Source: an uncultured Candidatus Altimarinota bacterium (lineage in GTDB: Bacteria > Patescibacteriota > Gracilibacteria > BD1-5 > UBA6164). Taken from it: a stretch of 34,624 bases of DNA. Positions 1,699-33,251 of this stretch are shown here, piece by piece. The position numbers and the translations under genes were made by a program. Positions within the stretch are counted from its first letter, which is position 1; each line of letters begins with the position of its first letter. The notes under the pieces were generated by a model that saw only the letters and a program-made list of their open reading frames with translations, ran no database searches and was not told the DNA's origin. The stretch lies in the NCBI GenBank assembly GCA_937944145.1, contig CALDZK010000018.1:1-34624 (forward strand), read 5' to 3'.

Positions 1699-1774
1699 GG
1701 ACTGATAGCTCAGTTGGTAGAGCACTCGCCTCTTAAGCGATAGGTCCCGGGTTCGAGCCCCGGTCAGTCCACCA
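1699..1774 (+). tRNA. tRNA-Lys (anticodon CUU)
   Basis: A complete cloverleaf with acceptor GGACTGA pairing TCAGTCC, a normal D arm, anticodon CTT at 1732-1734 with T33 before it and A37 after, T arm CCGGG-TTCGAGC-CCCGG and an encoded CCA tail. The closing pair of the anticodon stem (27-43) is a C-T mismatch. This normal tRNA is a useful contrast to the abnormal tRNA-like element at 5114. Confidence 0.96.
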
Positions 1775-1789
1775 TTTCAAAAAATATTT

Positions 1790-1817
1790 AAGTAGATCAA
1801 TATCGATCTACTTTTTT
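1790..1817 (+). repeat. TAGATC hairpin, copy 1 of 5 (terminator-like)
   Basis: Arms AAGTAGATC (1790-1798) and GATCTACTT (1805-1813), loop AATATC, then a T-run. It is placed to terminate tRNA-Lys. Closely similar hairpins recur at about 18249, 22246, 23750 and 31470, so this is a dispersed hairpin family rather than a private terminator. Confidence 0.75.
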
Positions 1818-1818
1818 A

Positions 1819-2710: not shown

Positions 2711-2733
2711 TATATTGAAAATGAGTGTGTAAT

Positions 2734-2754: not shown

Positions 2755-2769
2755 ATATATGTATAAATC

Positions 2770-2797
2770 TTGAAGATACAAGTTTATCCCTTATAGT
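2770..2797 (+). promoter_or_regulatory. Promoter of the kinase-ligase operon
   Basis: TTGAAG (2770-2775) and TATAGT (2792-2797) have a 16-bp spacer. The weak -35 box fits an activator-dependent promoter using the site at 2734-2754. Confidence 0.5.
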
Positions 2798-2823
2798 ACT
2801 CCTAATAAGAATTAACGATTATT

Positions 2824-3981
2824 ATGACAAAAGGAAATATTTATATGTTAGTATGACTCCCTGCAAGTGGAAAAAGTAGCTATATTGAAAAGATAGAAAA
2901 TACTGATGCAATAGTTTTATCATCAGATGCAATTCGTCAAGAATTGACCTGAGATGCAAGTATGCAACATAAAAATAGTGAAGTATTTTTAACTTTATTT
3001 GAGAGACTGAGTAAACACCAAGCAAATAAAGTACCAGATATTTACATTGACGCAACGAGCGTTTCTATTGCAGATAGAAGAAAGGCAATTAACGCTATAA
3101 AAAGACAAAATAAAGCAAAGCTTGTTTCAAGGGTTGGTGATGAAGTACAGCTAGAAAGTTTTTACTCGGTGACAGCAATTGTTTTTAATCAGCATCTTGA
3201 TGTACTAATCCAGAGAGATAAAAACAGAGAGAGAACCGTATGAGAGAAAGTAATTATGAGAATGTTGGCAAGATTTGTTCCTCCGTCTTTAGAAGAATGA
3301 TTTGATAATATTATTTCAATACCAATGGATGACTATAAACCCACTCGTACTGGAAAGTTTTTAGAAAAGCTGACATGATTTTGCTCGTGAAACGAGACTA
3401 TTGATTCTGTTTTAGAAGTAGATAATTATTTATCTAAAAGTCTTGATTGTGAACAAACTTCTCAGTGGCACCAAGAAACACTCCTTGAACACTTACATAT
3501 GATATTAGATTTAGTACAAGAACAAGCAGAAGAAAAAGATCTAAAAATGCTAAGGCTTATCACTCTCTTTCATGATATTGGGAAGCCATTTGTTCGATCA
3601 ACAAAAAAAGACAACCTCCTTATCAGAGGATATGAACACCTATGAGGAACAAGTTTTAAAAAGAAAAATGGCACACTCATCGATGTTGCGAATTATAAAG
3701 ATTATCAATTTCTGGAACATGAAAATTTTGGAGCAAATATTTTTGTTTCAAACTACCAAAAAATCTTAATAGATAATAATATTATAACTGAAAAACAAGC
3801 AAAAATTATCGAGGTGATAGTGAGATGACATCTGATTTTTCATACAAATGAAGGAAAAACATCGATCATAATTTCATGAGTTAAATATGATCAAGACACA
3901 GAGATATTTAGGCTTGGAACACTGTTTTCATATTGCGATGGAAACGGAAGAATAGGAATTAATGATATAAAAAATACATAA
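2824..3981 (+). CDS. Polynucleotide kinase-HD phosphohydrolase fusion (RNA end healing)
   Basis: A 385-residue two-domain protein. The N-terminal P-loop kinase (AAA_33/polynucleotide-kinase type) has Walker A GLPASGKS at residues 11-18 and LSSDAIRQEL around 35-45. A C-terminal HD domain has His 216 (in QWHQETLLEHL) and His250-Asp251 (LFHDIGK), plus downstream histidines. Kinases of this class phosphorylate RNA 5'-OH ends. HD domains are metal-dependent phosphohydrolases, and here the HD half may process 2',3'-cyclic or 3'-phosphate ends; that role is inferred. The stop overlaps the ligase start as TAATG, so the two are translationally coupled. Conserved glycines such as G11 are TGA-encoded. 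Function as an RNA 5' kinase is likely; DNA or nucleotide substrates cannot be excluded. Confidence 0.86.
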
Positions 3982-5096
3982 TGGAAAATATATACGACGA
4001 ATTAAAAAGATTGACTCAACTAGAAGAGAGATTCTATTCATCTTTTCAAGAAATAGATGGCTATACTATTGAAAACTTTTCCTATAGACTCGGAAACTAT
4101 GAAATGTTTGCGAGCTGAAACGCAAAAGAAATGAGAGGAATAGCATATATTTATGGAAATGAGATAACTGAGCCACAACTATTTACCTTAGGATACCATA
4201 AGTTTTTTAACTATGGTGAATGAAATACTCTTGAAGAAGTAAAGTGAAGAGAGATTGAATCTATTCAAGATAAGCTTGATGGCTCACTGGTTATGTTTTG
4301 AAAACTTCCGAGTTGAAAAATCATAGCAAAAAGTAAAACCTCTATCGATAGTTTTGTCGCAGCATTTGCAAATGCTTATATTGCTGAAGATGAAAAACTC
4401 TATCAGTTTATAGATGAGTGTTTAGAAGATGATGTATTCCCAATTTTTGAATATGTGTGACCAGAAAATAGGATCGTAGTCAGTTATGAAAAATCTGAGC
4501 TGGTATTACTCTGAATGAGAAAGGCAAACTGAGAATATGTCCCTTTTGATGAAGTACAAAAGAAAAGGGATACACATATTTCTCATATAGCATTATCTCT
4601 CTCGCAAAACTTTACAAGCTTAGAAGAGCTTTTAGAAAAACAACAAACAGATGAAGGATATGAATGATTTATAGTAAACTATACTGATGGATATAAGCTC
4701 AAAGTAAAGTTGCAATCATATGTTCTCAAGCACAGGGCAAAGGATGATATCTATAATGAAAAGCATCTAATAGATATCTGTCTCGCAGAAGAAACCGATG
4801 ATCTCAAATCCTTGTTTGCTTGAGATCAAGAATCACTTGATATTATTAGTAATATGGAGAAAAAAGTATCTGAGTTTTATAACACAGTAGTGCATGAGTC
4901 AGAAGAACTTTTTCAAGAAAATAGAGAACTAATGCAATCTTTTCAAAATGAAAGTGATGATCTGAAAAAAAGAGAATATAGAAAACAGCTTGCGATTAAA
5001 AACTGTAAGAATACATACTTCTCTCTTCTGATGAAGAGAATAGAGGGTAAAGAAATAGATTACAAAGATTTCGTAAGAGCAAACATTAGTACCTAG
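3981..5096 (+). CDS. T4 Rnl1-family RNA ligase
   Basis: A 371-residue ATP-dependent RNA ligase sealing 5'-phosphate and 3'-OH ends. The nucleotidyltransferase motifs are in order: motif I KLDGS with Lys98 as the adenylation site, IIAKSKTS (Ia), FPIFEYVGPENRIV (III), EGFIVNY (IV) and YKLKVK (V). Length and lysine position nearly equal those of T4 Rnl1 (K99 of 374). The C-terminal third is helical and charged, like the tRNA-recognition domain of Rnl1. T4 Rnl1 works with Pnkp to repair tRNA cut in the anticodon loop; here the partner kinase is encoded immediately upstream with a 1-nt overlap, and a tRNA-like element follows 17 nt downstream. The gene ends in a long hairpin. The family assignment is firm. 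Confidence 0.9.
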
Positions 5097-5107
5097 GTGC
5101 TAATGTT
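5082..5107 (+). other. Hairpin spanning the ligase stop codon
   Basis: Arms AACATTAG (5082-5089) and CTAATGTT (5100-5107) enclose the palindromic core ACCTAGGT, giving about 11 paired bases. There is no T-run, so it is not a normal terminator. The core resembles that of the terminator at 5258-5285, so related hairpins bracket the tRNA-like element. Confidence 0.6.
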
Positions 5108-5113
5108 AAAAAT

Positions 5114-5209
5114 GGAAAGGTGACTGAGTGGCTGAAGGTATGCGTCACCCGATAATGGGAACGCATATATCATATATATGATATCGCGAGTTCGAATCTC
5201 GCCCTTCCT
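5114..5209 (+). tRNA. Atypical class II (Ser-like) tRNA or tRNA-like element
   Basis: It has a Ser-type 5' half (GACTGAGTGGCTGAAGG), a class II variable arm (ATATCA paired with TGATAT) and a perfect T arm (GCGAG-TTCGAAT-CTCGC). Three features are abnormal. The anticodon stem TGCGT/ACGCA closes a 15-nt loop (CACCCGATAATGGGA) instead of 7 nt, itself able to pair CCC with GGG. The acceptor GGAAAGG pairs with the 3' strand only if one A is bulged or mismatched. No CCA is encoded. I cannot assign an anticodon. It could be a decayed tRNA-Ser, a tRNA with an insertion removed after transcription, or a substrate or decoy for the adjacent kinase and ligase. Confidence 0.55.
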
Positions 5210-5257
5210 CTATTAATAATCGCATAATAAATTATTTGTAAGATCCTCTATAAGAGC

Positions 5258-5288
5258 AAAAATCAGTGCCTAGGCACTGATTTTTTTT
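5258..5288 (+). terminator. Strong intrinsic terminator of the kinase-ligase-tRNA unit
   Basis: A perfect palindrome with arms AAAAATCAGTGCC and GGCACTGATTTTT around TA, followed by further T residues. It closes the first RNA-repair transcription unit. Confidence 0.92.
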
Positions 5289-5333
5289 GATATAACTATG
5301 GATAGCATAAGTCTATTTAGCTCCTGTTATATA

Positions 5334-5354
5334 TTGTCATTTTCGTCGACAGTA
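5334..5354. promoter_or_regulatory. Putative activator site, copy 2
   Basis: TGTCATTTTCGTCGACAGTA (5335-5354) is the second copy of the 2734-2754 motif, identical at 19 of 21 positions. It lies 15 bp before the -35 box, exactly as at copy 1. Confidence 0.65.
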
Positions 5355-5369
5355 TGTTGATATATAGGC

Positions 5370-5398
5370 TTGTATTATACTAATAAAACGTCTATAAT
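5370..5398 (+). promoter_or_regulatory. Promoter of the SPFH/second RNA-repair unit
   Basis: TTGTAT (5370-5375) and a consensus TATAAT (5393-5398) have a 17-bp spacer. The predicted transcript starts near 5405, leaving a leader of about 430 nt before the SPFH start codon. Confidence 0.75.
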
Positions 5399-5458
5399 AA
5401 GAGCGAATTAGAGTAATCTATATCTTGTTCTAAATACAAGAATGACACAAACTAATAA

Positions 5459-5686
5459 GTGAAATCTGTGTATCAAGAATACTGTAATTCTCCAGCCCCA
5501 TTATCGTCTGTGAAACGATTGACATCTTCGGATGTCCTTAACGTATATTCGGAAGAATATCTAAACATTATTATTTTCGTAGTTTTGATTTCGTTTGTAT
5601 GTGTTGTGTATTTATGCCTTGGTGTAAATCTGCAATATATGTATATAACAGAATTATTTCTAGAGCTCATACCATCGAATCTATAA
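5459..5686 (+). CDS. Doubtful small membrane ORF in the SPFH leader
   Basis: A 75-residue frame with GTG start right after an in-frame stop (VKSVYQEYCNSPAPLSS...), containing one hydrophobic segment near residues 38-55 (IIIFVVLISFVCVVYLCLG). It contains no TGA codon, unlike most genes here. Its first half overlaps three consecutive hairpins. A competing frame with ATG at 5442 gives a 40-residue peptide. I list it because it is the longest open frame in the leader, but the region may be structured RNA rather than coding. Confidence 0.25.
   Translation: MKSVYQEYCNSPAPLSSVKRLTSSDVLNVYSEEYLNIIIFVVLISFVCVVYLCLGVNLQYMYITELFLELIPSNL
5503..5560 (+). ncRNA. Structured leader: three consecutive hairpins
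   Basis: Directly adjacent stem-loops: ATCGT/ACGAT with a 7-nt loop (5503-5519), GACATC/GATGTC closed by a TTCG tetraloop (5521-5536), and ATATTC/GAATAT with loop GGAA (5545-5560). They lie 100-155 nt downstream of a good promoter in an otherwise AT-rich leader. A regulatory leader or separate small RNA is plausible; I match no known riboswitch class. Between 5561 and 5832 I see no convincing gene. A 16-codon ORF at 5696 is followed, in the same frame, by another open stretch after a TAG. Confidence 0.4.
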
Positions 5687-5832
5687 AATAAGATTATGAC
5701 ATTACTTACTTCTGAGGAATTGAGTAAAAACATTGTTCTAGCTTAGAGATTCCATGATTGAGTCCGAAGTATTCTCAAGAATGAGAAATTACGAAAATAA
5801 ATAACTAATAATAAATAACTAATAATAAAAAT

Positions 5833-6960
5833 ATGAAATACTTAATAGAAGAAAACCAAAGAGCATTTGTATATAAAAACGGTGTTATGCATACTATACT
5901 TGCTCCATGAAGATATTATTTTCCATCTGTGCTTTCAGATTATAAAGTTGATATTTTTAATATCGACCAAGAAGAACCTGCTTTTAAATTGCTTGAGAAA
6001 AATAACCTTTCAACAATTATTGATCCTAAATTGCTTGATGAATTTTTTTATCAATTTGAACTGAAAGATTCTGAAATAGGAATAGTGTTTAGAAATAAAA
6101 ATATTCACTCAGCACTGAAGTGAGGAGAAACATATTTATTTTGGAAATGATTTTGAGAATATAGTTGTGATGTTATTGATGTAGAAAAAGAACCTCAAAT
6201 AGATATCCAAAAATATAAAAAATTAAGAGATTTAATAAAAACGTGAGACAATATTGCTCAATATTATTTTGTTGAATCGTATGAAAAAGCAGTACTTGAG
6301 ATAGATGGAAATATAAATCAAATATTAGATGCATGAGAATACCTATTTAGTAATACCTACAACAAAATAGGTTTTACAAAATATGATATGAGATTGCAAA
6401 ATCTAGATGTATCTGGTCAAGAAATACTTACCAAAGATAAGATATCTATTCGTATGAATATTAGTGTGAATTTTATGATTGATGATGTGAAAATATTTCA
6501 TTCTAAATTTGCTCAAGGATATGATTATATTTATCAAAAAGCACAATTTATTATTCGTGAATTAGCATCGAGTAAAAAGCTCGATGAACTACTTGAGTTA
6601 AAAAATGAAGCATCTATGCAATTAGCAAAACTTCTTACAGATGCTCTCAAGGACTCTGGTTTAAAGATAGACTTTGTGTGAATAAAGGATATTATTCTCC
6701 CATGAGATATGAGAGATATCATGAATCAAGTGATAGAAGCAGAAAAGAAATCACAAATAAACGTGATACAAAGAAGAGATGAAACAGCTACTACGAGAAG
6801 TCTGCTCAATACGGCAAAGCTTTTAGAAGATAATCCATTACTTTTGAGATTAAAAGAGTTAGAAACTCTTGAAAATATAATAGACAAGGTAGGGAGTGTA
6901 AATGTATCCAACTGAATAGATGGGTTATTGAAAGACTTTGTAAAAATATGAAATTCATAG
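5833..6960 (+). CDS. SPFH/Band-7 (slipin-like) protein
   Basis: A 375-residue protein with no clear signal peptide or strong membrane anchor. The N-terminal half contains repeated short beta units ending in 'GRYYF', 'GETYLF' and 'GEYLF', which fit slipin-type entries into the SPFH fold. The SPFH domain proper (residues about 190-300) has RLQNLDVSGQEILTKDKISIRMN..VNF, YIYQKAQFIIRELASSKKLDELL and LKIDFVGIKDIILPGDMRDIMNQVIEAEKK, the classic end of the fold leading into a helical tail. Slipins scaffold membrane microdomains. Slipin-like genes are reported beside bacterial RNA-repair genes, as here. It follows a long structured leader and precedes the methyltransferase-ligase block. Confidence 0.86.
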
Positions 6961-7019
6961 ATATACAGGTATATTAATTCTTTATTAAATAATATTATTC
7001 ATTGTAAATGTATAGGGAA

Positions 7020-7044
7020 AAATTATACTAAAAGAGTATAATTT
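7020..7044. promoter_or_regulatory. Perfect inverted repeat upstream of the SPOUT methyltransferase
   Basis: AAATTATACT and AGTATAATTT form a 10-bp dyad with a 5-nt spacer, 19 bp before the start codon at 7064. It could be an operator over a TATAAT-like -10 box (the 3' arm carries TATAAT), or a weak terminator of the SPFH gene followed by GTTGTTT. Confidence 0.5.
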
Positions 7045-7063
7045 GTTGTTTGAATATAGAATT

Positions 7064-7651
7064 ATGACTGAAATTAAAAAAGAAAAAACTTCCCTGAGAA
7101 AAAGAGCTGATGCAATCAAGGAGTTTAGGTGTAAATATCTCATTGCTGTACTTGAAAATCCTGTCGAATTCGTGAATATTGGAACAGTGGTGCGTAATAT
7201 AAATGCCCTATGAGTAGAAAAACTCTATATAGTTGACCCACGTAAGAAACTTCCAGACGATTGGCAAGATATGAGAGAAAAGAAATCTCTCAGTACTCCA
7301 TCGGTTTCTGCTATTAAGTGGTCTTATGTGAAGCGTTTTGATAGTACAGAAGATTGCCTCAATCATCTCGAAAAAAATGGTTTTGTCTCGATTGTTACTT
7401 CACCACATATTAAAGGGAAAAACAATGTCGTATTGCATGAATGAAAATACACGCAATGAAAACTTGCTGTATGGTTTTGAAACGAATCACATGGAGTAAG
7501 TAAAGAAGTGATTGATAAAAGTGAGATGTGTGTACAGATACCGATGTATGGAATTATCGAGAGTTTGAATCTTGCGACATGTAGTGGTATTGTTCTCTAT
7601 GAAATTACGAAGCAAAGGAGAGAGTATGTTGCAAGTAAAAAGAAAAAATAA
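7064..7651 (+). CDS. SpoU/TrmH-family RNA 2'-O-ribose methyltransferase
   Basis: A 195-residue SPOUT-fold enzyme using SAM to methylate a ribose 2'-OH in tRNA or rRNA. Motif 1 is ENPVEFVNIGTVVRNINALG followed by VEKLYIVDP; motif 2 is LAVWFGNESHGVSKEVID; motif 3 is CVQIPMYGIIESLNLATCSG, supplying the trefoil-knot SAM site. The length is that of a bare catalytic domain, close to TrmH without large extensions. It sits 13 nt before an RNA ligase, so a role in protecting or restoring repaired RNA is possible but inferred; the ordinary alternative is tRNA Gm18 methylation. Confidence 0.9.
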
Positions 7652-7664
7652 TATAGAGGAATAA

Positions 7665-8468
7665 ATGAATATACAAAGTAAAAAGTATTGCAGAAGTCTA
7701 CACTCGCATTTAAGTTTATGAACTACATCTGATGATAGATTTATGCCTAAATGATATGTGAAAGCTTTTTCAGAGATGAATAAACTCATTATTACAGAGA
7801 AGCTTGATTGACAAAATAGTTGTTTTAATAAAGAGGGAGTTTTTGCAAGATCACATACTTCTAAGTCCATGAATCCATGGGATAAACCATTATGGGAAAA
7901 ATGGGAACTCATAAAAAATGATTTACATGATATTGAAATATTTTGAGAAAACATGTATGGAGTTCATTCTATAGAGTATTGAAAGTTAGAGTCATATTTT
8001 TATGTATTTGCAATTAGAAAATGAGATACATGGCTCTCTTGGGAGGATACAAAATGATATGCTAGTTTATTTGATTTTCCAATAGTACCAGAATATAAAG
8101 TGTCATTTGAATTAAGCAATTTTGTAAACTTGAATAATGACGAAAATATTGCACTTGAAAAATGGCTTACAAAAGATATTTGAACTTCATGGCTAGAAAG
8201 TGTTGATACGGAAGGAAAACTTTGATGAGTAGACTGTATAACAAAGAAGCCTTGTTCAGAATGATTTGTTATTAGAAATGCAGATTCTTTTAGAACAAAT
8301 CAATGAACGATTAAAACTAATTCAAATGAATTTAATAATCTATTCAAACTTGTAAGGGAGGCTCATGTGAAAACTGAAATTCATTGGTCAAAGACATGGA
8401 AACCTGCAAAACTAGTTGACTACGAAAAACATAAATGGTATGGATATGAATATTTAAATAATAGATAG
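7665..8468 (+). CDS. Second RNA ligase (RNA_ligase family, Rnl2-like group)
   Basis: A 267-residue ATP-dependent ligase of a different family from the 3981 enzyme. Motif I is TEKLDGQNSC with Lys46 as the predicted adenylated residue. Next come VFARSHTSKSMNPW (Ia), IFGENMYGVHSIEYGKL (III), SYFYVFAIR and WLSWEDT, EGFVIRN (IV) and NLFKLVREAHVK (V). The GEN(L/M)Y..HSI signature belongs to a bacterial and phage family normally found beside an HD-kinase gene, and here that gene starts 2 nt after the stop. Many glycines are TGA-encoded. RNA end joining is the likely activity; substrate unknown. Confidence 0.87.
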
Positions 8469-8470
8469 TT

Positions 8471-9613
8471 ATGATATGGAAATTTCCAAAGTATGATACT
8501 TCTAAAGAATTGAATTGGGATGACTTACTAAAGTCCTACTCGTGGATTTTAGATATGAGTGGAGTTCCTCAAGATCCAATATGGCATGCTGAATGAGATG
8601 TCTTAATTCATACTCAGATGGTATTGAAAGCATTGTTTCAACTTGAAGAATTTCAGAAATTGGATGAACAGGAAAAGCATATCTTAGTGACAGCAGCTTT
8701 ATTCCATGATATTGAGAAGATATCGACTACTACCGAAGAAGAAATTGATTGAAAGATAAGAATTGTATCACCTAAACATGCTAAAAAATGAGAATATACT
8801 ACTCGCTTTATTCTCTATAAAGAGTTTAATACCCCTTTTGTTATACGAGAACAAATTTGTAAACTTGTAAGGCTGCATGGTTTGCCTGTATGGTGAATTA
8901 GTAAAAAATGTCCAGAGTTGGAAGCAATATATGCGAGTACTGTAGTTGATACAAAGTTATTAATAATTTTAGCAAAATCTGATATAATAGGAAGAGAATG
9001 AGAAGCTAAAAAAGATATATTATTGAGAATAGAATTATTTAAAGAATTATGTATAGAAAACTGATGTTATGGTGTTCAAAAAAAATTCCAATCAAATCAT
9101 GGTAGATACTTATATCTGAGTTGAGTATCATCATATATTGATTATAGACCATTTGATGATTTTTGATCGAATGTAATAGTTATGTGTGCTTTACCATGAG
9201 CTTGAAAAGATACATATATATCTAATCATTTTGATTTTCCTGTTTTATCGTTAGATGATATAAGAAGAGAATATAAAATAAATCCATCAAACAAAAAAGA
9301 TAAAGGAAAGGTTATACAGCTTGCAAAAGAAAAAGCTAAATCATTTTTACGAGAAAAACAATCTTTTATATTCAATGCAACAAATATAACAGTAGATATG
9401 AGAAAGAAGTGGATTGATATATTTGTTGATTATAAAGCAATGGTGAAGATTGTTCATATAGAAGTTCCATATTCTCAACTGAAAAAACAAAATAAAAATA
9501 GAGATCATTCCGTTCCCGAAAGTGTTTTAGAATGACTTATTTTAAAATATGAAGTCCCTAGCTTGAAAGAAGCTCATGAATTAGAATCAATTATTATAGC
9601 TCCACCTTTCTAG
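8471..9613 (+). CDS. HD phosphohydrolase-polynucleotide kinase fusion
   Basis: A 380-residue protein with domains in the opposite order to the 2824 gene. An HD domain comes first (His39 in IWHAEGDVLIHT, His79-Asp80 in ALFHDIEK, later KHAKKGEYTTR and RLHG), then a P-loop kinase with Walker A LPGAGKDT at residues 241-248 and LSLDDIRREY after it. IFNATNIT and the basic KNRDHSVPESVL segment fit the lid region of polynucleotide kinases. It is paired with the ligase just upstream (2-nt gap), giving a complete heal-and-seal set. Two Walker A glycines are TGA codons. After the stop there is no gene for about 355 nt apart from the small ORF at 9789. Confidence 0.87.
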
Positions 9614-16880: not shown

Positions 16881-18173
16881 ATGACAAATATAGTAACAAT
16901 ACAGAATAAGCTGAAAGAAATAGATAAAAAACTCTACATAGTTGGAGGTTTTTGTCGTGAGAAGATTTTGGGAAACGATAACGAGTGAGATGTAGATATA
17001 GTCACAGATGCGACTCCTGATGAGATGAAGCAGGTGCTAAAAATAGTATGAGAAGTCGGGAAGAAATATGGTACATGTATAGTGTCTGAATGAGGAGAAG
17101 CTTTTGAACTGACAACTTTTCGTAAGGATATCGGAAGTATAAACTATAGAAAACCAGCAGAAGTTGCATTTACAGACTCACTCGAAGAAGATTCTGAAAG
17201 AAGAGATTTTACTTGTAACGCGATATATTATAATCCTGAAACACAGGAATATATAGACCCCCAAAATGGTACTCAGGATATTGAAAATGGAGTCATACGA
17301 TTTGTGTGAAATATCGAGGATAGGATTCAGGAAGATGCCCTGAGAATACTGAGATTTATTCGTTTTAAAAATAGGTACAATTTCAAAGTGGTCGATGATA
17401 CATACTGGGATATATTGAAACAAAACATCGAGATACTCAAAAATATTCCTATGGAAAGAATCAGGCAAGAACTCGATAAGATATTATTGCATCCAAGTAA
17501 TACAAACGCACTCGAAGATTTAAAATACATATGATTTTTAAAAATATTTCTTCCTGAACTTGATTGTCTAGATAAATATCCATGAAATAAATATCATCTC
17601 GAATGAGATGTCTGGATTCATACAAAGATGTGTATTGAGGAGATGAATAATATTGTAAAGCGAGATGCTATTACTTGAGAGAGGAAGCTTTTGTTATTGT
17701 GGGCTATTTTGCTTCACGATATCGGAAAGGCTCCGACTTTTACTGTCTGAGCGGATTGAGAATCCCACTATTATGATCATGAGAATATAGGAGCTCAAAT
17801 GTTCAAAAATGAACTGGTTGAAAGATTAAAATTTTCAAATGAGTTTGAGAAGAAGATATATTTTATTATCAAACAGCATTTGCGTGTGTTTATTATTCCT
17901 GAAATGAGAAAGCTCAAAGCAAGAAAACTTATGATGGAAAACTATTTTGATGATTTACTCCTCGTATGAGAGGCAGATAATAAATGAAGAAGGCTTCAAA
18001 AACTCGAAGCTTTTGAAAACCTCTTAAGTATCTATGCTGATTTCAAAGTATTACTTGAAACAAAACAGTTTCTAACATGAGAAGATATCATGAACAAATA
18101 CCCAGAGTTAAAGTGAAGAGAGATATGAGAAAGATTGAAACAACTAAATGATCAGATACTTATTAAAGGTTAA
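16881..18173 (+). CDS. cca: CCA-adding-type tRNA nucleotidyltransferase with HD domain
   Basis: A 430-residue class II tRNA nucleotidyltransferase/poly(A) polymerase family protein. The head has IVGGFCREKILG (Gly22-Gly23) and GDVDIVTDA (Asp37/Asp39), then the FRKD, DSERRDFTCNAIYYN and EDALRILRFIRFKNRYNF motifs for nucleotide and tRNA binding. A C-terminal HD domain has HLEGDVWIHTKM and LLHDIGKAP (His279-Asp280). CCA enzymes rebuild the 3' CCA of tRNA, and this HD domain could remove cyclic phosphates as in E. coli Cca. GGFCRE departs slightly from the usual GG.VRD. It may be the genome's housekeeping enzyme or a repair-dedicated copy; the tRNA-like element at 5114 lacks an encoded CCA. Confidence 0.9.
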
Positions 18174-18195: not shown

Positions 18196-18365
18196 TCTCC
18201 ATCTCAGTTCTAACAAGGTTCACTAAGTTCCAAGCACATCAACGTATTTTAGAAGTAGGCTAGAGTAGGTCTACTTTTTTAGAGTTAGATTATTTTCATG
18301 CAAATAGCTATTTAAAGACATTTTTGCTTTAAAATAGAGGATAGTATTGGTTCGAGCGTCAGATG
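18196..18365. repeat. Compound intergenic repeat, copy A
   Basis: Left module with TCAGTTCTAACAAGGTTCAC (within 18196-18231), then a degenerate TAGATC hairpin with T-run near 18249-18280, then a right module ending GTTCGAGCGTCAGAT. It shares all three modules in order with copy C (23692). It fills most of the 297-bp gap after cca. Confidence 0.8.
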
Positions 18366-18408
18366 TTTATATTATTAAGTATTATATATAAAACATAAAA
18401 AATATAAA

Positions 18409-21930: not shown

Positions 21931-22197
21931 ATGTCAGAGAATACTTCTCAATTTCAGTTCTAACAAGGTTCACTAAGTTCCACCAATAAATCGTTAAAAT
22001 CTAAAACTCAACAGATAGTATCAAATTTATGGTTTTTTACCTCATTACTATCAATATATGGAATAAGTATTTCAATTACACAAATTAAAAACAAAGCATG
22101 ATTCTGGCCATATATAGGGCTTTTTTTTAATTTTGTATGGCTCTTATTTTTTCTTTTGGTTTTTTTATTAGTTTTTATTGCTGATTTGTCTGTCTAG
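21931..22197 (+). pseudogene. Small two-TM protein ORF interrupted by one in-frame TAA
   Basis: From ATG 21931 the frame reads MSENTSQFQF, then TAA (21961-21963), then stays open for 77 more codons to TAG at 22195. Downstream it encodes QGSLSSTNKSLKSKTQQIVS and two hydrophobic segments (LWFFTSLLSIYGISISI and PYIGLFFNFVWLLFFLLVFL). No ATG, GTG or TTG offers a clean restart after the TAA. The TAA lies inside the left module of the compound repeat, so repeat insertion or conversion probably created the break. A real membrane protein may have been inactivated; readthrough is less likely. Confidence 0.5.
21946..21983. repeat. Compound intergenic repeat, copy B, left module
   Basis: TTCAGTTCTAACAAGGTTCA with neighbours matches the left modules of copies A and C. 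Here it is separated from the hairpin and right module (22241-22355) by about 260 bp containing the two-TM ORF. Confidence 0.75.
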
Positions 22198-22240
22198 TTA
22201 ACTCAATTTTTCTTTTAAAGACACCAATACATTTCAAATA

Positions 22241-22355
22241 AAAAAGTAGATCAATGTCGATCTACTTTTTTAGAGCTAAAGTATTTTAGTACAAATAGTT
22301 CTTAAAGGACATTATTACTTTAAAATAGATGATAATATTGGTTCAAGTGTCAGAT
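22241..22355. repeat. Compound intergenic repeat, copy B, hairpin and right module
   Basis: The hairpin has arms AAAAAGTAGATC and GATCTACTTTTTT, then a right module (TAGAGCTAAAGTATTTTAGT ... GGTTCAAGTGTCAGATG) clearly related to A and C. It lies just upstream of the AAA+ gene. Confidence 0.8.
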
Positions 22356-22438
22356 GTAGTAATTAATTTGATATATTCTAACTTGCGTATATTTATTTTA
22401 TATTTACAATATATTTAATAATTGATATATTAAGTTCT

Positions 22439-23691: not shown

Positions 23692-23858
23692 TCTCCATCT
23701 CAGTTCTAACAAGATTCACTAGGTTCCAAGGATATCAACGCATTTAGAAGTAGATCAATATCGATCTACTTTTTTAGAGCTAGAGTATTTTAGTACAAAT
23801 AGGTATTTAAATACATCTTTACCTTAGAATACAGGAGGTACTAGTTCGAGCGTCAGAT
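23692..23858. repeat. Compound intergenic repeat, copy C
   Basis: The left module TCAGTTCTAACAAGATTCAC, hairpin GTAGATC/GATCTAC with T-run (about 23750-23776) and right module ending GTTCGAGCGTCAGAT, in the same order and spacing as copy A. It marks the right border of the RNA-repair island, between the AAA+ gene and the convergent metal-export operon. Confidence 0.8.
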
Positions 23859-23904
23859 ACAGTAGTTACCTCTTGAAAATTATTAAGTAAGATTAGTTTT
23901 TTAT

Positions 23905-26900
23905 TTACTTTTTTTCTTTTTTATACAACATCAAAAACATTCCTGGACGAATAAATACTTCTACTAATGTTGATACTAAGAGTCATCCAAATACAACCGT
24001 AGCAAGAGGATAGAGTATTTCTTTACCTGGTGATTCTCATCAGATAATAAGAGGAAGCAGAGCTAACATACTTGTAAGAGAAGTCATAAGCATAGGGGTA
24101 AGTCTATTGAGCGAGCCAGTAATAATAGTTTGTTTATTAAATGGCATACCTTCTTGTTCGATCAGATACTTCCAATGTTCTATGAGCAATATTCCATTTC
24201 TCGCTGAAAGACCAAGTAGAGAAATAAGTCATACCATACTGGCAAGATTAATCACGTTTCCAGTCAGTTTTATGGCAATCATACCTCAGAGGAAAGTGAC
24301 AGGTATGTTCGCTAATACTTGTAATACTAAGCTTAGAGAACGAAACTTTATAAATAAAGCAACTACGATACCAATAAACGCTAATATAGAGAATACAATA
24401 AGTTTTCTACTTGATTCTTTCTGACTTTTATAGGTCCCTTCATAACTTATGAAGTATCATTTTGGCATTTCAATATTTTCTGCAATACGTTTTTTGAGTG
24501 TTTCAATAATAGTCACACTATCTCCATCCAGTATACCCGAACTTACTACTATACGTCTCTGACCGTTATCATGACTGATAGTATTTCTTCCAAGAGTTTC
24601 TTTTACTTCTGCTACCTCTCATAGAGATATCAGTTTCCCATCTACACTGGCAATAGGAAGACGAGAAATATCTCTTTTATTTTCTATCGATTCAGGTGGA
24701 AGTCTGAGTGTTAGCTCATATGATCTATTTCCCTCAAGAATAGTTCCGAGATCATGTCCTGCAAGAAGTGTCTCTGCTGTACTCGTAAACTCTCAAATAC
24801 TTATTCCAAATTGTGATAATTTTTGCCTATTAGGAATAATACTCAATTCAGGAACTTTTACTTCTTGTTGCACCACAGGGGCTAGTGTTCCAGGTATCGT
24901 TGCGAGTTCACTTTGTACTTGCTCAGCTATATCTCTGAGTATATCAAGATCATTTCCAAATACTTTTATAACCAGAGGTGCACGAACTCAGCTCAGAATA
25001 TGTTCTATTCTATGACTGATTGGTTGACCGATAGTTACGTTTGCACCTTGTACATCTATATGTCCAAATACATCTTTAATTTCTTGTATAACCTTATCTT
25101 TATTTGCATCTGCATTTATATCTACTTCAAGTTCAGATATTTGTACTCCATTTGCATGTTCATCTTCTTCAGCGCGACCACTTCTTCTCGCAACAGATGT
25201 AACATCTGATATTCAAATGAGTGCTTTTTCAATAGTAGTTCACACTGTATTGCTTTGTGATAGCGAACTACCTGGAGGAAGAGATATTCAAATCGTCAGT
25301 GTTCATTCATTAAATGGTGGTAAGAATTCTTTTCAAGACGAGACAACAAGTAGGCTGGTAAGGATTATACCTCAAATAGCTAATATAACTCATCATTTTG
25401 GAAAATATAAACTCCACTTAATAGCAGGGAGTGCAATTTTATGAAGTAATCTTACTATATACGTAGGCTGATTTTTTTCTATTATAGTTTTATGAGGCAA
25501 TAAATAATAACTCATAATAACTACAACACTCATTGCTACGATGGTAGAAGATATCAGTGCAGTAATATAAGCAATAGCAAGAGGAGCCATAAGTCTTCAT
25601 TCAATTCATCCTAAAGCGAGTAGTGGTAAAAATACCAGTGTCACTAGAATAGTAGAATATATAACAGAACCACGTACTTCCCTACTTGACCCAAGTATCA
25701 CTTCTTTTATAGATTTTTTTGTTGGATCATTATCTTTCTTTTGAGCATTTGCTTTGAGCCATCTAATACTATTTTCCAAATCTACTACAGCGTCATCAGT
25801 CAGCTCTCAAATCGCTACTGCCATACCTCAAAGGGTCATTACATTGAGTTCTATCCCAAAGTATTTTAGAATAAGTATAGATAACATAAATGAGCACGGG
25901 AGTGCCGTGAGCGTAATAGCAAGAGCTCTCCAATTTCACAAGAAGAGAATAAGAATTAGTACTACTAAGATACTCGCATCTCGTATCGCAGTAGAAATAT
26001 TATTTATACCATTACGAATAAACTTTTCTTGAGTAAATAAATCACTGTGTAACACCACGTCATCTCATAGGGTTACTTGAAGTTCATCAAGTGTAGATCT
26101 TACCCTCGCACTTAGTTCAAGGGTATTTTGATCAGGTTGTTTTTGAATACTCATAATCACACCAGGATTCCCATCGATACCTGCATCTCATCTTGGGTTA
26201 ATAGCTGCTGATTTTGATACCTCTGCTATATCTCAAAGCTTTATAGATACACCATTACTTTGTGCTATTATAGTTTGCTTAATAGTATCTAGATTATTTG
26301 TTTGAGCTATAATTCTGATAGGAGATTCACCATCTTGAGTTACGAGAAAGTTTCCTGATTTATTTTCAACAATTCACTCGAGTTTGGACGTGATTTCATC
26401 AAGTGAAATTCAAGTATTTGCAAGTTTATTTGGATCTAAGAGAATTTGGTATTCTTCTCTTTCTCCTCATATTATTGTTACCTGAGCAAGACCTGAGAGT
26501 GTGAGAAGCTTAGGTCTGATACTCCAATCTGCAAGTGCTCTGAGTTCTCATGGTGATACACTTCAATTTGGAGAGCTGAGACCTATGAGTTGGATCTCTC
26601 ACATAATAGAACTAATCGGGCCAAGAACAGAATTTGTTCCTTCAGGTGTACTAGTAGTATTTAATTTTTCACTTACTATTTGCCTCGCTAGATATATATC
26701 CTCACCCCAACCAAACTCTACGAAAATCAGACTTAAACCAGCAGAGCTGATACTTCTTACTCTTTCTACTCATGAAGCTCAATTAAGAACCGATTCAATA
26801 GGAGTAGTAACGAGTAATTCTACCTCTTCAGCTGCAAATCATTCAGCCTCTGTAAATACAGTAACGGTTGGTCTATTTAAGTCAGGGAGAATATCTACTG

Positions 26901-27012
26901 AGCTCGTGATGGTTTGGTATATTCAAAACAAAAATAACGTAAAGGAGATAAATAGGACTATTTTTCTTTTTTGCAGTACCCATCTAATAACATTTTCAAA
27001 AATGGCTTCCAT
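23905..27012 (-). CDS. HME-type RND efflux pump (CusA/CzcA-like)
   Basis: A 1035-residue inner-membrane RND transporter of normal length for heavy-metal pumps. The N-terminus [15 protein letters not shown] leads into TM1, and [20 protein letters not shown] is the usual porter start. The TM4 region [16 protein letters not shown] carries the acidic proton-relay pair, followed by a large second periplasmic loop ([20 protein letters not shown]) and the C-terminal TM bundle ([36 protein letters not shown]). It exports metal from periplasm or cytosol using proton motive force. The start overlaps the upstream gene stop (TAATG), so it is coupled to the membrane-fusion protein. The metal is inferred as copper from the multicopper oxidase in the operon. 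Confidence 0.92.
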
Positions 27013-28952
27013 TATTTTTCATCGTTAGAAACTAATTTTGTGTCTATTTCTAGTCACTCACTGAGTGGAACAGGACTAGCTATGATAATCCATTCAGAAC
27101 CATCAAGTCCTCCTTTTACATAAGCAGTTCCATTAAAGAAAAAGTCTGTTTCTATCCTTTTAGTTTTCGACTGCAAACTATCATCTATAAACCAAATACT
27201 GCTAGAGTTTTCACTGAGTTCTATAGCAGACTCAGGTATAGCATATAGAGAAATATCATCCCCGTTATCTGTTTCACTAAATAGTGGTATCTGCACTCGT
27301 ACATTCATATTTGTTATAACTCTCTCTAGATCATCTCTTCCAGTAATATCTGCTTCTACCAAGATTTGTTTTGTGTCTTGTGATAAACTCTTGCTTACTC
27401 TGGAAATAGCTACCTGAAAACTTTCAGACGGTGAAAATGGAGATGAGAAACTCACCTGTTTTCATTCTCTTATAAATGGATATTGATCTTCTCCGATATA
27501 AAATCTAATGAACTTACTGCTTTCATCTACCATACTAAAGAGTGGTTTTGATATATCAACAGACGTTCATACACTCACGTGTTTGGCAGTGATAGCTCCA
27601 CTAAAAGGTGCTTTTATAGTAGTTCCCCATCAGCGTTGTCCCTGGAGAGCCTCTATCTTTGCCTGTCTGTTTGCGATTTGTGTATCTATCTCTCTTTGTG
27701 AGAGGATTGTTTCAAGTTCTAATTCTTGTGTTGTGATCTTGAGCTGGGTATCGAGTGTTTGGTTTTCTACATCGATGTTTATATCAATACCTTTATTTTG
27801 CGCAATAATTTGAGTTTCTAAATTTGTCACAAGTTGTTGGATCTCTCTCCCCTTTTGTTCTAGTTCTAATTTCTTTGTGATTTTTTGAGTTTCTAGGTCT
27901 TGTATACGATTGAGTATCTCAGAATTTCCAAGTTGTACCTCATTATAGTGATCTATTGCCTCATCTAGTGCCTGTAGTCTATCGCTCAGTTCTGTGCCCT
28001 CAGAAACAGAAATAGATACAGTATTGCTTATCTGACGAGCTTCTTGGCTAAACCTAAGTGCCTGATTTGCCAAATCTGCCTGACTCAAAGTACTGTTACG
28101 GTACTCTGCATGAAAACTGAGAAAGCTCTCACTGAGTTTATATACTTCATTTCATGTAACTCATATCAATTCAGATCTGATTATCTTTCGGGAGGCAGGT
28201 CTGAAATTTTTTATTTGAAATGAATCATTATATAAAAAGTCAGCAGTAGCATCTATCATATCTATAACACTATTTGTAATACCTAGTTGTCTTGTATCTT
28301 GTTGCGACCTTGCTGTTGAGATCTGAGCATCTATAGTTTGTATATCGACTTCATACTGCTTCTTTGCAGTTTCTGCTTCTAGTTTTCTTGATTCTATCTG
28401 GGTTTGAATAGGAAGAATCTTGTTGGTAGTATCGAGGTTTTTTCTGTCTTTATTATTGATGAGTAAGGTTTTTTTGTCAGCGTTTGTCTGACTGAGAAGC
28501 TCGATCCTTTTATCTGTATTTTTTGCTACGAGTGTTTTTTGTGTTTTTAGGATAGATATTTCTTTTTGTAAGAGTGAGATATCTGATCAGATCTGTATAT
28601 CAGACCTTTCAGGAGTGATACGGGCAAGGACTTGACCTTTTTGAACGTAGTCTCATGTTTCTGCTAGTAGTTGGGTTACATTTCCAGATTTAAGCGGATA
28701 GATCTCACTTTGGTTTTTTGCATGAACGACTCCATTCACTTCAAAACTCGTGGTATCTACATATGCCTGTTTTGCTTTTATAACTGTTACAATAGGATAT
28801 TTTGATCCTCCTGATGTTTCTATTTCATCATGTTTTTCATCTCAATGCCCAAATACCATATAGGACCCAGCAAACAAAGAGAGGAATATTACCATAGTAA
28901 TACCGATTTGCTGTTTCATATAATTTTGTATATTTTTTATGTATGTACTCAT
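27012..28952 (-). CDS. RND membrane-fusion (periplasmic adaptor) protein
   Basis: A 646-residue adaptor with one N-terminal membrane anchor (IGITMVIFLSLFAGSYMVFG), a lipoyl/barrel-sandwich half (VVHAKNQSEIYPLKSGNVTQ, GDYVQKGQVLARITPE), a very long alpha-helical hairpin (about residues 130-420, rich in Gln, Glu and Lys), then a second lipoyl half (GTTIKAPFSGAITAKHVSV) and beta-barrel. The hairpin is longer than in CusB-type adaptors. A second ATG (MKQQIG, start 28919) is an alternative. It links the pump to an outer component; no outer-membrane factor gene is present in the window, and in a possibly single-membrane CPR cell the partner is unclear. Confidence 0.87.
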
Positions 28953-28980
28953 AGATTATAAGGTTAAATAAATTAGTATT

Positions 28981-29289
28981 TTAATGTCTATGTGGTGGTA
29001 CATCGTCAGCATGTTCATGATCATCGTCGTGAAGATGATCATCAGTGCCAGTATCATCATGTTTTGTACCACCTTCTTTTGGAATATATGGATTTCAAAA
29101 TTCATCTACTGGACAGTCACCTACAAGAGATCCATCAGAGACTTTATGACAAGCTATGTTATCATCTGCAACTATATCAAGTGTTGGGGATATTTCTACT
29201 GGTGGTGGGGTAGTATCAATAGCTTGTTTATTATCTGTACATGATACAATAAAAATTGCTACGAAAAGTAAGAGAATACATTTTTTCAT
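28981..29289 (-). CDS. His/Asp-rich lipoprotein
   Basis: A 102-residue exported lipoprotein: signal MKKCILLLFVAIFIVSC with a lipobox ending at Cys17, then a spacer and a C-terminal metal-binding tail full of His and Asp (KHDDTGTDDHLHDDDHEHAD, ending PPHRH). The tail is reached only when a TGA codon near residue 65 is read as glycine. It probably binds metal at the cell surface and hands it to the RND pump or oxidase. It lies between the multicopper oxidase (25 nt) and the fusion protein (28 nt). Confidence 0.85.
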
Positions 29290-29314
29290 AATTAAAGTAA
29301 TTAAATAAATAAAA

Positions 29315-30874
29315 TTAGTGGCTATGTTTTTGTGTTGGGAGATCATGATCTCATACCGTAAAGTGAAATAACATTCCTGCATGTAAATGCTCACTTATAT
29401 GGCAATGAGCCATCCATATTCATGGATTCGTATTATCTAGGAGTATTTTAATTTTCTCTCCAGTTTCGAGGAGAACAGTGTCTTTCCATTGTAGATTATC
29501 GTTGATAACCCCATCACGCTCGATTACTACAAATCTCTGACCGTGAAAATGGATAGGGTGCTGCATAGGATGATCAGCATGTTTATCATTGTCTATTTCT
29601 ATTACTACTTGTTCTCATAGTTCAAATTGCCAGTCAATATCTTGATTTACTTTTCCACTATCTTGATCCACAAGTTTCCATACTACATTTTTGTTTGTAA
29701 AATGGCTATTTTTGTCTTTTTGGTCATCCTTCCAGCTTATAGTTTGTGCATCTCCGTGTGCATGATGTGCGTGGGATTTTCCTCATTGTATATCAACAGC
29801 AACTCTGAGTCTTTTATCTGCTCTTCACTCAGCTAGCCCCTGTATCTGAGATCGAATAGCTCAAAAATCATCACTATTATCCCTGAGAGTTTGGAAATCA
29901 CTCAAACTATCATTTTGAGATTTCTCTGTTACCAGAACTTTTCATAACTCATGCGTAAACTCAGGAGTACTATTTTGTATACTGTACTCTCATGGTTCAG
30001 GATAGTAGACTTCTAAAATATATCTTTCTGCTGGAGCGATAGTTATTCACTGGGCTGGAGCAAGTATTTCACGTTCTATTCTTCCAATATCTCCTCACAC
30101 AATCTTTGTTTGTGCTCCGTCAATAGTGATTCTGAAAGGACGTACATTTGCACTATTAGTGATAAAATATCTCACTGTTTGTCACGCTGTAGCTGTAGTA
30201 GAAAATTTTTCTTCGTTGTTAATCATCTGTATATCACCGAAACGTCATGTGAGTGCGTGCGTAGTAGTATCTTGAAAATACTCTGACAAACTCAGATCAT
30301 CGAGTATCCAGCTTTCTTCAGGTAAGTCCTGAGTCCAATAATCCTCTGATTCGGGTTGTACTAGGTAGTTTCCATAGAGTCATCCATCTTGTTGTCTGTC
30401 TTCACGAACATGAGGATGATACCAAAACACTCCTGCATCAGGAAACTCAAGTTCATAGCGAAAGGTTTCTCCAGGTTTTACAGATGGATGAGGTATACCA
30501 GGAGTCCCATCCATAGTATAGTCTCCACGGAGTCCATGGCTATGGATCGTAGTTTCTTCATCAATATTATTTGTGAAATTCAGTGTTATTTTTGCTCACT
30601 GAGGAACTTGAAAAATTGGTCCAGGAATCATTTCATTATAGGCGAGACGCTTGAGTATTTTTCCCCCGATTTCTTGTTGTACAAAATCAGCAGACATATC
30701 ATAACTCTCACCATCTCTGAGTGATATTATAATCGGTTTCTTTGCATGAGGTATATCAAGAGCAATGTTATTATCATAGCTTTGTCCTTTGAAAGCCCCT
30801 GCATTATAGTTATTATAAATCTGGTATGATGTGATTATAACTATAAAAATAATCAGAAAATATGTTTTTTTCAT
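29315..30874 (-). CDS. Multicopper oxidase (CueO/CopA-like)
   Basis: A 519-residue three-cupredoxin-domain oxidase with an N-terminal signal/anchor (KTYFLIIFIVIITSY). All copper-ligand motifs are present: TIHSHGLRG and FWYHPHV in domain 1, HPIHFHGQRF and MAHCHISEHLHAGM in domain 3, covering the type 1, 2 and 3 sites. Such enzymes oxidise Cu(I) to Cu(II) or other metal/organic substrates in the periplasm. An added His-rich stretch (GKSHAHHAHGDAQ) lies before domain 3. The genes around it encode metal-binding exported proteins and an HME pump, consistent with copper detoxification. Confidence 0.93.
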
Positions 30875-30878
30875 AAAT

Positions 30879-30905
30879 AAAAAAGATAATTATATAAAAA
30901 TTATC
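30879..30905 (-). terminator. Terminator/attenuator-like hairpin before the oxidase gene
   Basis: On the minus strand, GATAATT and AATTATC pair around a 7-nt AT loop and are followed by six T. It lies a few bases upstream of the oxidase ATG. A second GATAATTTT upstream (plus 30931-30939) could compete for pairing, which suggests attenuation between the first gene and the rest of the operon. Confidence 0.45.
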
Positions 30906-30942
30906 CACTAAAAAAGTAGATAGGTTTAAAATTATCTTTTTA

Positions 30943-31314
30943 TTATAATAAAAGCTCTGTACTGATACGTATAGATGTACGCTGTTTGATATTATCAGGA
31001 GGAGACTGGGGAAAAACGAGATTTTTTATAAACTTAAATACGAAATAATCCCTATCTTGCCCGTAATCTCGGAGTATATCCTCACTCGTATCATCGTAAT
31101 CTACTCCTGTATGAGAGCTAGCAATTGATACATGGACTTCTTGTAATTCACTACAACAGTCTATATCTTCTTGGTCGTGATGATGCGCTGACTCGCTAGC
31201 GTGTACATGATGTTCTAAATGTCCTGCATGTATATCAAGAGACATGCAAAAACTTCCTAAAGCAATGAATAGAAATAGAGCTGAGCTGAGTATTTGCTTG
31301 AAGTAGGAAAGCAT
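30943..31314 (-). CDS. His-rich exported protein, first gene of the metal operon
   Basis: A 123-residue protein with a signal peptide (LSSALFLFIALGSFCMSLDIHA) and a mature His/Cys cluster (GHLEHHVHASESAHHHDQED, then DCC), strongly suggesting metal binding. The remainder is hydrophilic and ends RTSIRISTELLL. No known family recognised. It directly follows the palindromic operator and promoter region, so it should be the most strongly expressed gene of the operon. Confidence 0.82.
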   Translation of the reverse strand: MLSYFKQILSSALFLFIALGSFCMSLDIHAGHLEHHVHASESAHHHDQEDIDCCSELQEVHVSIASSHTGVDYDDTSEDILRDYGQDRDYFVFKFIKNLVFPQSPPDNIKQRTSIRISTELLL

Positions 31315-31348: not shown

Positions 31349-31469
31349 ACTTCTTTATTTATTTTTGCAAGGGATTAGGTAATAATAAAGAGAAAAATTG
31401 TAAGAAAATAGGGATTTTTTGAAAAGAGAATTTCAGGAAAATAAAATGCTCCTATTCTAAAAATATACT

Positions 31470-31497
31470 AAGTAGATCAATGTCGACCTACTTTTTA
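31470..31497. repeat. TAGATC hairpin, copy 5
   Basis: AAGTAGATC-AATGTC-GACCTACTT (one mismatch), followed by T residues. It lies between divergent genes, where no plus-strand gene needs termination, so it fits a dispersed hairpin element better than a private terminator. Confidence 0.65.
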
Positions 31498-31517
31498 TTT
31501 TATGTATATAAAAACTT

Positions 31518-32122: not shown

Positions 32123-32692
32123 ATGAACATAAAAAAACAAGAAATCATTCAAACAGCAATCAGGCTCTTTTCAGAAAACTGATTTCACGCAACAGGTGTG
32201 GATATGATCGTTAGAGAATCATGAATCACAAAAAAAACGCTTTACCATCATTTTGGGAGTAAAAATGGTCTTATCGTCGCGAGCTTGTGGAAATACCATG
32301 GAGACTTTGTAGAGTTCCTCTCTTCATCTGTTGCAGAATCGAGTGATGATCCACTCAAACAACTTCAGGCTATATTTGATGTTGCCTATAGCCGGTTTCG
32401 TCAGGACAATTTTTGTGGTTGTATGTTTATAAATGCTATATGAGAATATTCAGACTCTGAGTCAGAAATTACGGAAGTATCACAGAACTTCAAACATACC
32501 ATTTATAATGCTATTAAAGAAATCTGCATCAAGGCAAGTCTAAAAAATCCAGATGAAACAGCTCGTCATATAGCACTGTTGCTCGAATGAGCTATCGTGA
32601 CAGCTCAAGTTATGTGAGATCCAAATGCAGCTGAAACGGCTAAAGATATACTAAAAACTCTTATACATGAACAACAATCTCAAACTCGATAA
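32123..32692 (+). CDS. TetR/AcrR-family transcriptional regulator
   Basis: A 189-residue repressor. The N-terminal HTH (residues about 8-55) has IIQTAIRLFSENGFHATGVDMIVRESG, with GITKKTLYHHFGSKNGLI as the recognition helix region. The ligand domain (DNFCGCMFINAIGEY) resembles the TetR group with a conserved 'GC...N' motif. It likely controls the MAPEG gene through the dyad at 31525-31546. Its 3' end overlaps the next gene by 26 nt, so repressor and glycosylase-like protein are co-expressed. Confidence 0.9.
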
Positions 32693-33251
32693 TCTCATAC
32701 AAAAAATCAGGTCTTGCAAGGTATGTAGCGATCTCCCATGTGGTCCGAGACCTATACTGTCTGTATCTCCAACTTCAAAGATACTCATTATCGGACAAGC
32801 TCCCTGAATACGCGTCCATACTTCGGGAATTCCATGGGATGACCCCAGTGGAGAGAGACTCAGGCAGTGGCTCTGAGTAGATACTAAAACTTTTTATGAT
32901 GCGAGTAGAGTTGGTATTATGCCTCTAGGGCTTTGTTATCCATGAACGGGAAAGACCTGAGATCTCCCTCCCAGAAAAGAATGTGCCCCACTCTGGCATG
33001 AAAAGATTTTAGAGCAACTCCCAGAGCTTGAGGTCATAGTTCTGATTGGATGATACGCTCAAAAGCATTATCTCTGAAAAAGGTTAGAAAAAAACCTCAC
33101 TGAAACCGTAAAAAATTATAAAAATTATCTCCCAAAGTTTTTTGTACTCCCTCATCCATCCCCGAGGAATAATATATGGATGAAAAAAAATGAGTGGTTT
33201 GAGGCAGAGGTGATTCCTGAACTGAAGAAATCAGTATCACAATATTTATAA
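32667..33251 (+). CDS. Uracil-DNA glycosylase family protein
   Basis: A 194-residue protein of the UDG superfamily (family 4/5-like group, 'UdgX-like' small proteins). Seen: KVCSDLPCGPRPIL with cysteines near the N-terminus, the active-site stretch ILIIGQAPGIRVHTSGIPWD followed by DPSGERLRQWL, and the C-terminal motif LPHPSPRNNIWM. It should remove uracil or related damaged bases from DNA, though this subgroup is often only annotated by similarity. Translation start ATG lies inside the TetR gene in another frame. Confidence 0.85.

Follow-up and report, generated by a model that had tools for sequence, protein, structure and literature searches.

An in-frame TAA close to the start of what resembles a small membrane-protein gene raises the question of whether a gene was broken at this locus or whether the stop codon belongs to something else. 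The window (the whole 34,624-nt stretch of DNA analysed here) is contig 18 of an 18-contig, 1.18-Mb genome with a stated completeness of 98%. TGA encodes glycine in this genome (code 25), with long genes obtained under code 25 and broken-up genes under table 11. An ATG and ten codons lead to the TAA at 21961-21963, the next 77 codons are open and the frame closes at a TAG (22195-22197). One in-frame TGA, at position 22099, falls inside the 77-codon frame, whose continuity depends on TGA being a sense codon, as the long neighbouring genes also require. With TGA read as Gly, the TAA and the 77 open codons reported at 21931-22197 by the first-pass annotation are confirmed. Its further statements that the TAA is part of a repeat and that this copy is split also held, since the stop codon sits within a left module L (21946-21983) and the terminator-R module of the same copy begins about 260 bp from L. 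Our analysis indicates that the TAA most likely belongs to a conserved scar of mobile gene islands joined beside a tRNA gene, and mutational damage to a membrane-protein gene is an improbable origin for it. The features on which the argument draws are as follows.

1699..1774, plus strand: tRNA-Lys (CTT), presumed integration target; 3' end CCACCATTTC, then a terminator
1785..1818, plus strand: tRNA-Lys terminator, a 29-nt hairpin identical to that of copy 3
18196..18233, plus strand: L copy 1; its minus strand reads WNLVNLVRTEM
18253..18366, plus strand: terminator and R copy 1, immediately after L
21931..21963, plus strand: ATG and ten codons to the TAA; a gene start without comparative support
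21946..21983, plus strand: L copy 2, source of the TAA; its minus strand reads WWNLVNLVRTEI
21964..22197, plus strand: 77-codon open frame with two hydrophobic stretches, an orphan; no in-frame ATG, GTG or TTG before 22156
21981..21988, plus strand: left core-like direct repeat CACCAATA, one of only two copies in the window
22222..22229, plus strand: right core-like direct repeat CACCAATA
22244..22357, plus strand: terminator and R copy 2, with R from 22266
23692..23729, plus strand: L copy 3; its minus strand reads WNLVNLVRTEM
23748..23861, plus strand: terminator and R copy 3
31455..31500, plus strand: another copy of the 3' flank and terminator of tRNA-Lys

Copies and spread of the L and R modules

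Exact matches to TTCTAACAAGG lie at 18208 and 21958, and a copy with a single mismatch lies at 23704. Matches to the 38-nt L module at 18196, 21946 and 23692 reach 46-48 bits (E 1.6e-13 to 3.7e-13), far beyond chance, and the 92-nt R module is found at 18275, 22266 and 23770 with a terminator before each. The spacing between L and R is about 42 bp for copies 1 and 3; the second copy has its L end at 21983, and its terminator arm begins at 22244. A first search with a mixed query of window copies gave matches in 5 of 99 genomes, the window's own included; in the fifth of these, G029, only 34 bases matched and the later family searches gave no hit. Across 48 family genomes, L was detected at E<1e-8 in seven places in four genomes (three in G000, two in G012, and G039 and G045), with nine weaker places besides, and R at E<1e-16 in seven places in the same four genomes, with six weak places (E 0.002-0.01). 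In each of G000, G012, G039 and G045, strong L and R matches follow one another in alternation along one strand. TTCTAAC or TTTTAAC is retained in 7/7 strong L copies, a terminator precedes R in 7/7 strong copies, and R is conserved across the four genomes.

The two modules are also found apart. G012, G039 and G045 contain L without an adjacent R, mostly followed by ACCA or a variant and a terminator-like hairpin of its own, and they contain R without L, with a similar core and a terminator ahead of R. One strong L copy (G012b) shows neither a clear core nor a clear terminator. This separate occurrence in relatives indicates that L and R are separable ends, and that the pair is more than a single repeat split by inserted DNA. 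The sequence (G)GTTCGAGC, like a tRNA T-loop, is common to tRNA-Lys and most R copies. A decayed tRNA was considered as the origin of R and rejected, as local alignment to tRNA-Lys was not convincingly beyond 500 shuffles; the observed score was reached by 30, 408 and 164 shuffles for window copies 1, 2 and 3 and by 39, 35, 264 and 84 for G045, G012a, G012b and G039, respectively. A transposon with R and L as its ends was set aside once the tRNA anchoring described below emerged.

Minus-strand reading of L and the serine recombinases

To a six-frame reading of L we submitted 14 copies (7 strong and 7 weak, which are related and not independent); only minus frame 0 exceeded all 300 column shuffles (z 3.0), and the figure for the next-best frame was 16 of 300. 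The weak hits in G033 and G021, which have no core-terminator context, were excluded, and the G038 copy lies outside the set. The motif in minus frame 0 is [LIVF]Vxx[VI][RK][TI][EK][IM], the two preceding residues often being WW, and a stop occupies the second codon of this frame in two of the 14 copies (G012b and G039). The minus strand of L thus encodes ...LVxxVRTEI, the C-terminal end of a large serine recombinase, and the plus-strand TAA is a minus-strand TTA within ...GTTAGAAC. The one recombinase with a full L-type tail seen in the family is G038:C21, a protein of 505 aa (Pfam Resolvase 3.8e-18, Recombinase 2.7e-16) with the C-terminus ...SALWSKLVNEVRTEIMNYEGHIKIVKV, also given as ...LNSALWSKLVNEVRTEIMNYEGHIKIVKV. 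The profile model R2 weakly matches the 3' end of its gene in the correct orientation (E 0.0065).

Recombinases of the PF07508 family are present in 27 of 47 family genomes. The window's own genome has no PF07508 match at E<=1e-5 and no PF00239 match at E<=0.01, so present mobility there is unsupported. Comparison of coordinates at 30 recombinase loci, out of 52 places listed, revealed that the recombinase 3' end overlaps an opposite-strand tRNA in 17 (the overlapped tRNAs being Lys, Pro, Cys, Glu, Trp and Arg) and ends within about 160 bp of a tRNA in two more. The best five matches outside G038 to a composite C-terminal query, which was built in part from tRNA-Lys cases, comprise G030, G036:C52 and G042, all at tRNA-Lys, and G033 and G036:C35, with no tRNA within the examined piece. 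An L-like end (E up to 0.5) was found beside tRNA-Lys recombinases in none of nine regions from six genomes. L is therefore not the end of every tRNA-Lys recombinase element, and the candidate role of L as the far end of such elements generally was dropped. Among the pieces L101-L130, the last codons of family serine recombinases are often antisense tRNA sequence (WWDIRGSNPGP is one case); such tails are a source of misleading C-termini in annotation.

The L pattern was also run against other contigs. Viral contigs gave four matches, by eye without terminator context, and none to the R pattern. Genome contigs gave 17 stretches matching L, five of them Gracilibacteria (G011, G012, G018, G039 and G045) and 12 others. 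Two stretches from Nomurabacteria (L081 and L093) look like related junctions; they have one flank in common, the other differs at the L-like peptide LRGLVDDVRTEL, and each has its own terminator-like hairpin. They may represent such a junction in a second candidate phylum. A peptide similar to that of L is present in L084 and L086, L084 being putatively recombinase-like by eye, and the L090 match, in what we take to be a release factor gene, looks like a chance match.

The coding signal bears on two other readings of the modules. L and R could together make up an integron attC site, one half each, with the window as a cassette array that lacks an integrase. Gene units do lie between the repeated sites, as in integron arrays, and the L start TTCTAACAA and the R end TTCGAGCGTCAGATG resemble attC ends. 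However, no integron integrase (IntI) was found above the cut-off in 99 genomes, folding gave no consistent attC hairpin (R''-L''...L'-R'), the modules occur apart in relatives, and L codes on the opposite strand. The attC/CALIN candidate was rejected on the first three of these points, and we regard the integron reading as scarcely credible. Alternatively, L and its terminator could form a regulatory RNA element at transcript 3' ends, and a terminator-like hairpin does follow L, by eye, in most copies. This proposal is very unlikely, as a shared structure is absent from L, Rfam gave no match at the L or R modules, and the conservation of L tracks minus-strand codon positions.

Proposed islands beside the tRNA-Lys gene

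An upstream tRNA on the same strand is present in 6 of the 10 genomes with L. It is tRNA-Lys in five (the window, G012, G018, G039 and G045) and tRNA-Sec in G038; the examined pieces of the other four (G025, G037, G011 and G015) contain no tRNA. The weak L match of G038 falls within the recombinase 3' end, downstream of tRNA-Sec, and in G018 tRNA-Pro precedes a third, weak L. The G045 contig starts within the 3' half of tRNA-Lys (by eye against G039), and its serine recombinase reads antisense into the tRNA, so that a large serine recombinase beside the array, with its gene crossing the target, is seen in this genome. Between this tRNA-Lys recombinase and R (2706-8204 of piece L037), a restriction-modification-like pair was noted by eye only.

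Repeats of the tRNA 3' flank at the junctions were tested against 500 shuffles each. Seven of 12 junction comparisons beat every shuffle: four of five in the window (copy 1, copy 2 right, copy 3 and 31470), both in G018 (L1 and L2), one of three in G012 (Ra) and neither of two in G039. The five that did not were copy 2 left, G012 La, G012 Rb, G039 R and G039 L. For L1 and L2 of G018 the scores are 94 and 62 (no shuffle above 25), and for copy 2 right, copy 3 and 31470 of the window they are 62, 59 and 58 (no shuffle above 29); the window matches consist mostly of the terminator hairpin, the sharing of which could have other causes, and the copy 1 junction has a 12-nt match only. Further repeats are found in other relatives. 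In G042, the one clear distant tRNA repeat matches the tRNA-Lys 3' end at 17/24 positions, lies 37 kb downstream and has a different tail, and G004 holds three near-exact copies of the tRNA-Lys 3' part inside about 0.5 kb; at the same threshold, tRNA-Lys 3'-end repeats were absent from G036, G026, G021 and G028.

We propose that L is the end (an attachment half-site) of islands serially integrated at the tRNA-Lys 3' end by a large serine recombinase, and we put the probability of this reading at roughly 80%. The window is most likely a tandem island array at the tRNA-Lys gene (1699-1774), and the copy at 31455-31500 may, judging from its sequence, be the distal boundary of the array. Islands would integrate one after another, presumably by way of a circular intermediate. 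In the autonomous form the recombinase gene would cross the attachment site and its last ~20 codons would be supplied by local sequence, either the antisense tRNA at the tRNA site or the L end of a neighbouring island. A gene crossing the attachment site would keep L as a minus-strand protein-coding tail and make the plus-strand TAA incidental. A more tentative extension, which is probably wrong, is that resident islands keep L as a ready 3' gene end, so that an incoming recombinase element landing beside L regains its native C-terminal tail and one landing at the tRNA receives an antisense-tRNA tail. If so, full enzyme activity would depend on the neighbour, the arrays would be self-licensing docking sites, and the synonymous-type conservation of L would be a trace of that selection.

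Several known systems resemble this arrangement. In staphylococcal cassette chromosome (SCC) elements, the large serine recombinases CcrA and CcrB act at a single chromosomal site, the protein gene rlmH, and give composite tandem islands. SCC, likened here by description, thus shares large serine recombinases and tandem islands with our array and differs in having a protein-gene target and not a tRNA. SCC has itself been compared with the ssrA islands of Dehalococcoides, the known kind that the plan of our array matches by analogy (PMC3146451). As described in that article, the Dehalococcoides islands are tandem, the ssrA 3' end recurs as 20-bp repeats, a conserved motif of 15 bp stands ahead of the repeat, and the serine recombinase gene always overlaps attL. 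Its authors suggest that full function of the recombinase may be confined to the circle or to a position beside an island with the 3' fragment, and our data provide sequence evidence, from bacteria in which TGA encodes Gly, for this open idea of a recombinase gene completed on the circle or by a neighbouring island (PMC3146451). Both systems appear to have tandem islands downstream of one RNA gene with 3'-end direct repeats at the boundaries, a short conserved motif immediately ahead of each repeat, a large serine recombinase (DsiB in Dehalococcoides) by attL whose 3' end overlaps the site and can run into the RNA gene or the adjacent island, and some islands from which integration genes are missing (PMC3146451). 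In contrast to the islands described there, the target here is mainly tRNA-Lys and not ssrA, several junctions show a short RNA-gene repeat or none detectable, the sequence continues with a terminator copy and a second conserved module (R), and the window's genome has no serine recombinase match; moreover, the Dehalococcoides insertion point lies in the ssrA T-loop, whereas several junctions here carry only the last tRNA bases.

Islands targeted to tRNA genes are reported to employ tyrosine integrases usually (Islander, PMC4383910). Our array shares with such islands the integration at a tRNA and the displaced copy as a boundary, and the enzyme here would be a serine recombinase. Patescibacteria are reported to have expressed ccrB-like recombinase genes in a groundwater study (PMC9938205). 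Among the open-access matches listed, there was no description of such arrays in Gracilibacteria, in related candidate phyla or generally.

The 77-codon frame of copy 2 and the neighbouring genes

Under the island reading, copy 2 would hold a small segment with a membrane-like frame at the junction of the L of one island with the terminator-R of the next. Its frame would extend back into L by chance, its own start having been cut off at the junction, or it would never have been a gene. The segment of about 240 bp is bounded by CACCAATA at 21981 and 22222; at least two copies of this 8-mer arose in 22 of 100 window shuffles, so the boundary is a suggestion. The frame from 21964 runs back into L and meets the TAA, and the ATG at 21931 is upstream sequence, so that no damaged gene is needed. 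The first-pass annotation had offered two explanations. Insertion of a repeat into a gene is unsupported, as the TAA is fixed in 7/7 strong L copies, L is meaningful on the opposite strand as a recombinase C-terminus and no convincing homologue was found. Insertion of a gene into a repeat survives in outline, in that the membrane-like segment does part L from terminator-R.

Whether the frame is a gene was assessed in several ways. Dinucleotide shuffling of the local 318 bp produced a stretch of 77 or more codons free of stops, in any of six frames, in 96 of 1000 trials, so the open run by itself is weak evidence of a gene. Homologue searches gave no convincing match spanning the TAA or starting after it in 99 relatives (29 genomes with E<=1, own included; best other E 0.0046, partial), in 353 genomes of the class (14 with E<=0.01, own included; best other 8.3e-4 across 35 residues) or among viral contigs. 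Pfam gave no match, PHROG gave one at 0.08, and 22001-22143 has no significant second copy in the own genome. The intact homologue, colinear across the TAA, by which a pseudogene would be recognised was thus missing from the 99 relatives, the 353 class genomes and the viral contigs. Homologues that begin past the TAA, which the first-pass annotation had named as evidence against its reading, were not seen either, because no homologue was found.

A real two-TM protein gene at 21964-22197 could nonetheless be translated today through a non-standard start (ATA or ATT) or TAA readthrough. The peak hydrophobicity of the frame is unusual, being equalled in 0.4% of 1000 composition shuffles and exceeding 99.6% of them, its codon score exceeds that of every one of 1000 composition shuffles and of 98.8% of 430 out-of-frame windows, and the ATG at 21931 follows the preceding stop by only 5 nt. 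On the other hand, the codon score is lower than in any of the 215 in-frame windows taken from neighbouring genes (on which the score had itself been trained), the frame lacks any ATG, GTG or TTG before 22156, the homologue searches above, Pfam included, found nothing convincing, and the TAA is invariant in every strong L copy. We therefore consider a present-day gene unlikely. The results conflict, and the frame may be a former coding piece whose 5' side was cut; it is most likely a 5'-truncated remnant or chance. The island-end reading removes a false pseudogene or readthrough candidate and illustrates that an island end can imitate a stop-interrupted gene.

The arrays would mark sites of accessory-gene uptake in these small genomes, here of RNA-repair and, by eye, metal-efflux genes. 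An RNA-repair-type run at 2824-9613 comprises an AAA_33 kinase, a T4 Rnl1-type RNA ligase, a Band_7/SPFH protein, a second RNA ligase and an HD+kinase protein, and a CCA-adding-like gene was recognised by eye at 16881-18173; both sit in the interval from tRNA-Lys to L copy 1. Repair of cut tRNA-Lys is a function of T4 Rnl1 and Pnkp, and the location of the RNA-repair genes by tRNA-Lys is curious for that reason. Genes of efflux type (RND/Cus-like efflux, multicopper-oxidase-like and related genes, by eye from translations) occupy the minus strand at 23905-31314, with R copy 3 on one side and the copied terminator at 31470 on the other. To the right of the array, similar uracil-DNA-glycosylase-like genes were noted by eye at 32667-33251 of the window and at 16408-16977 of L133, in the G018 region.
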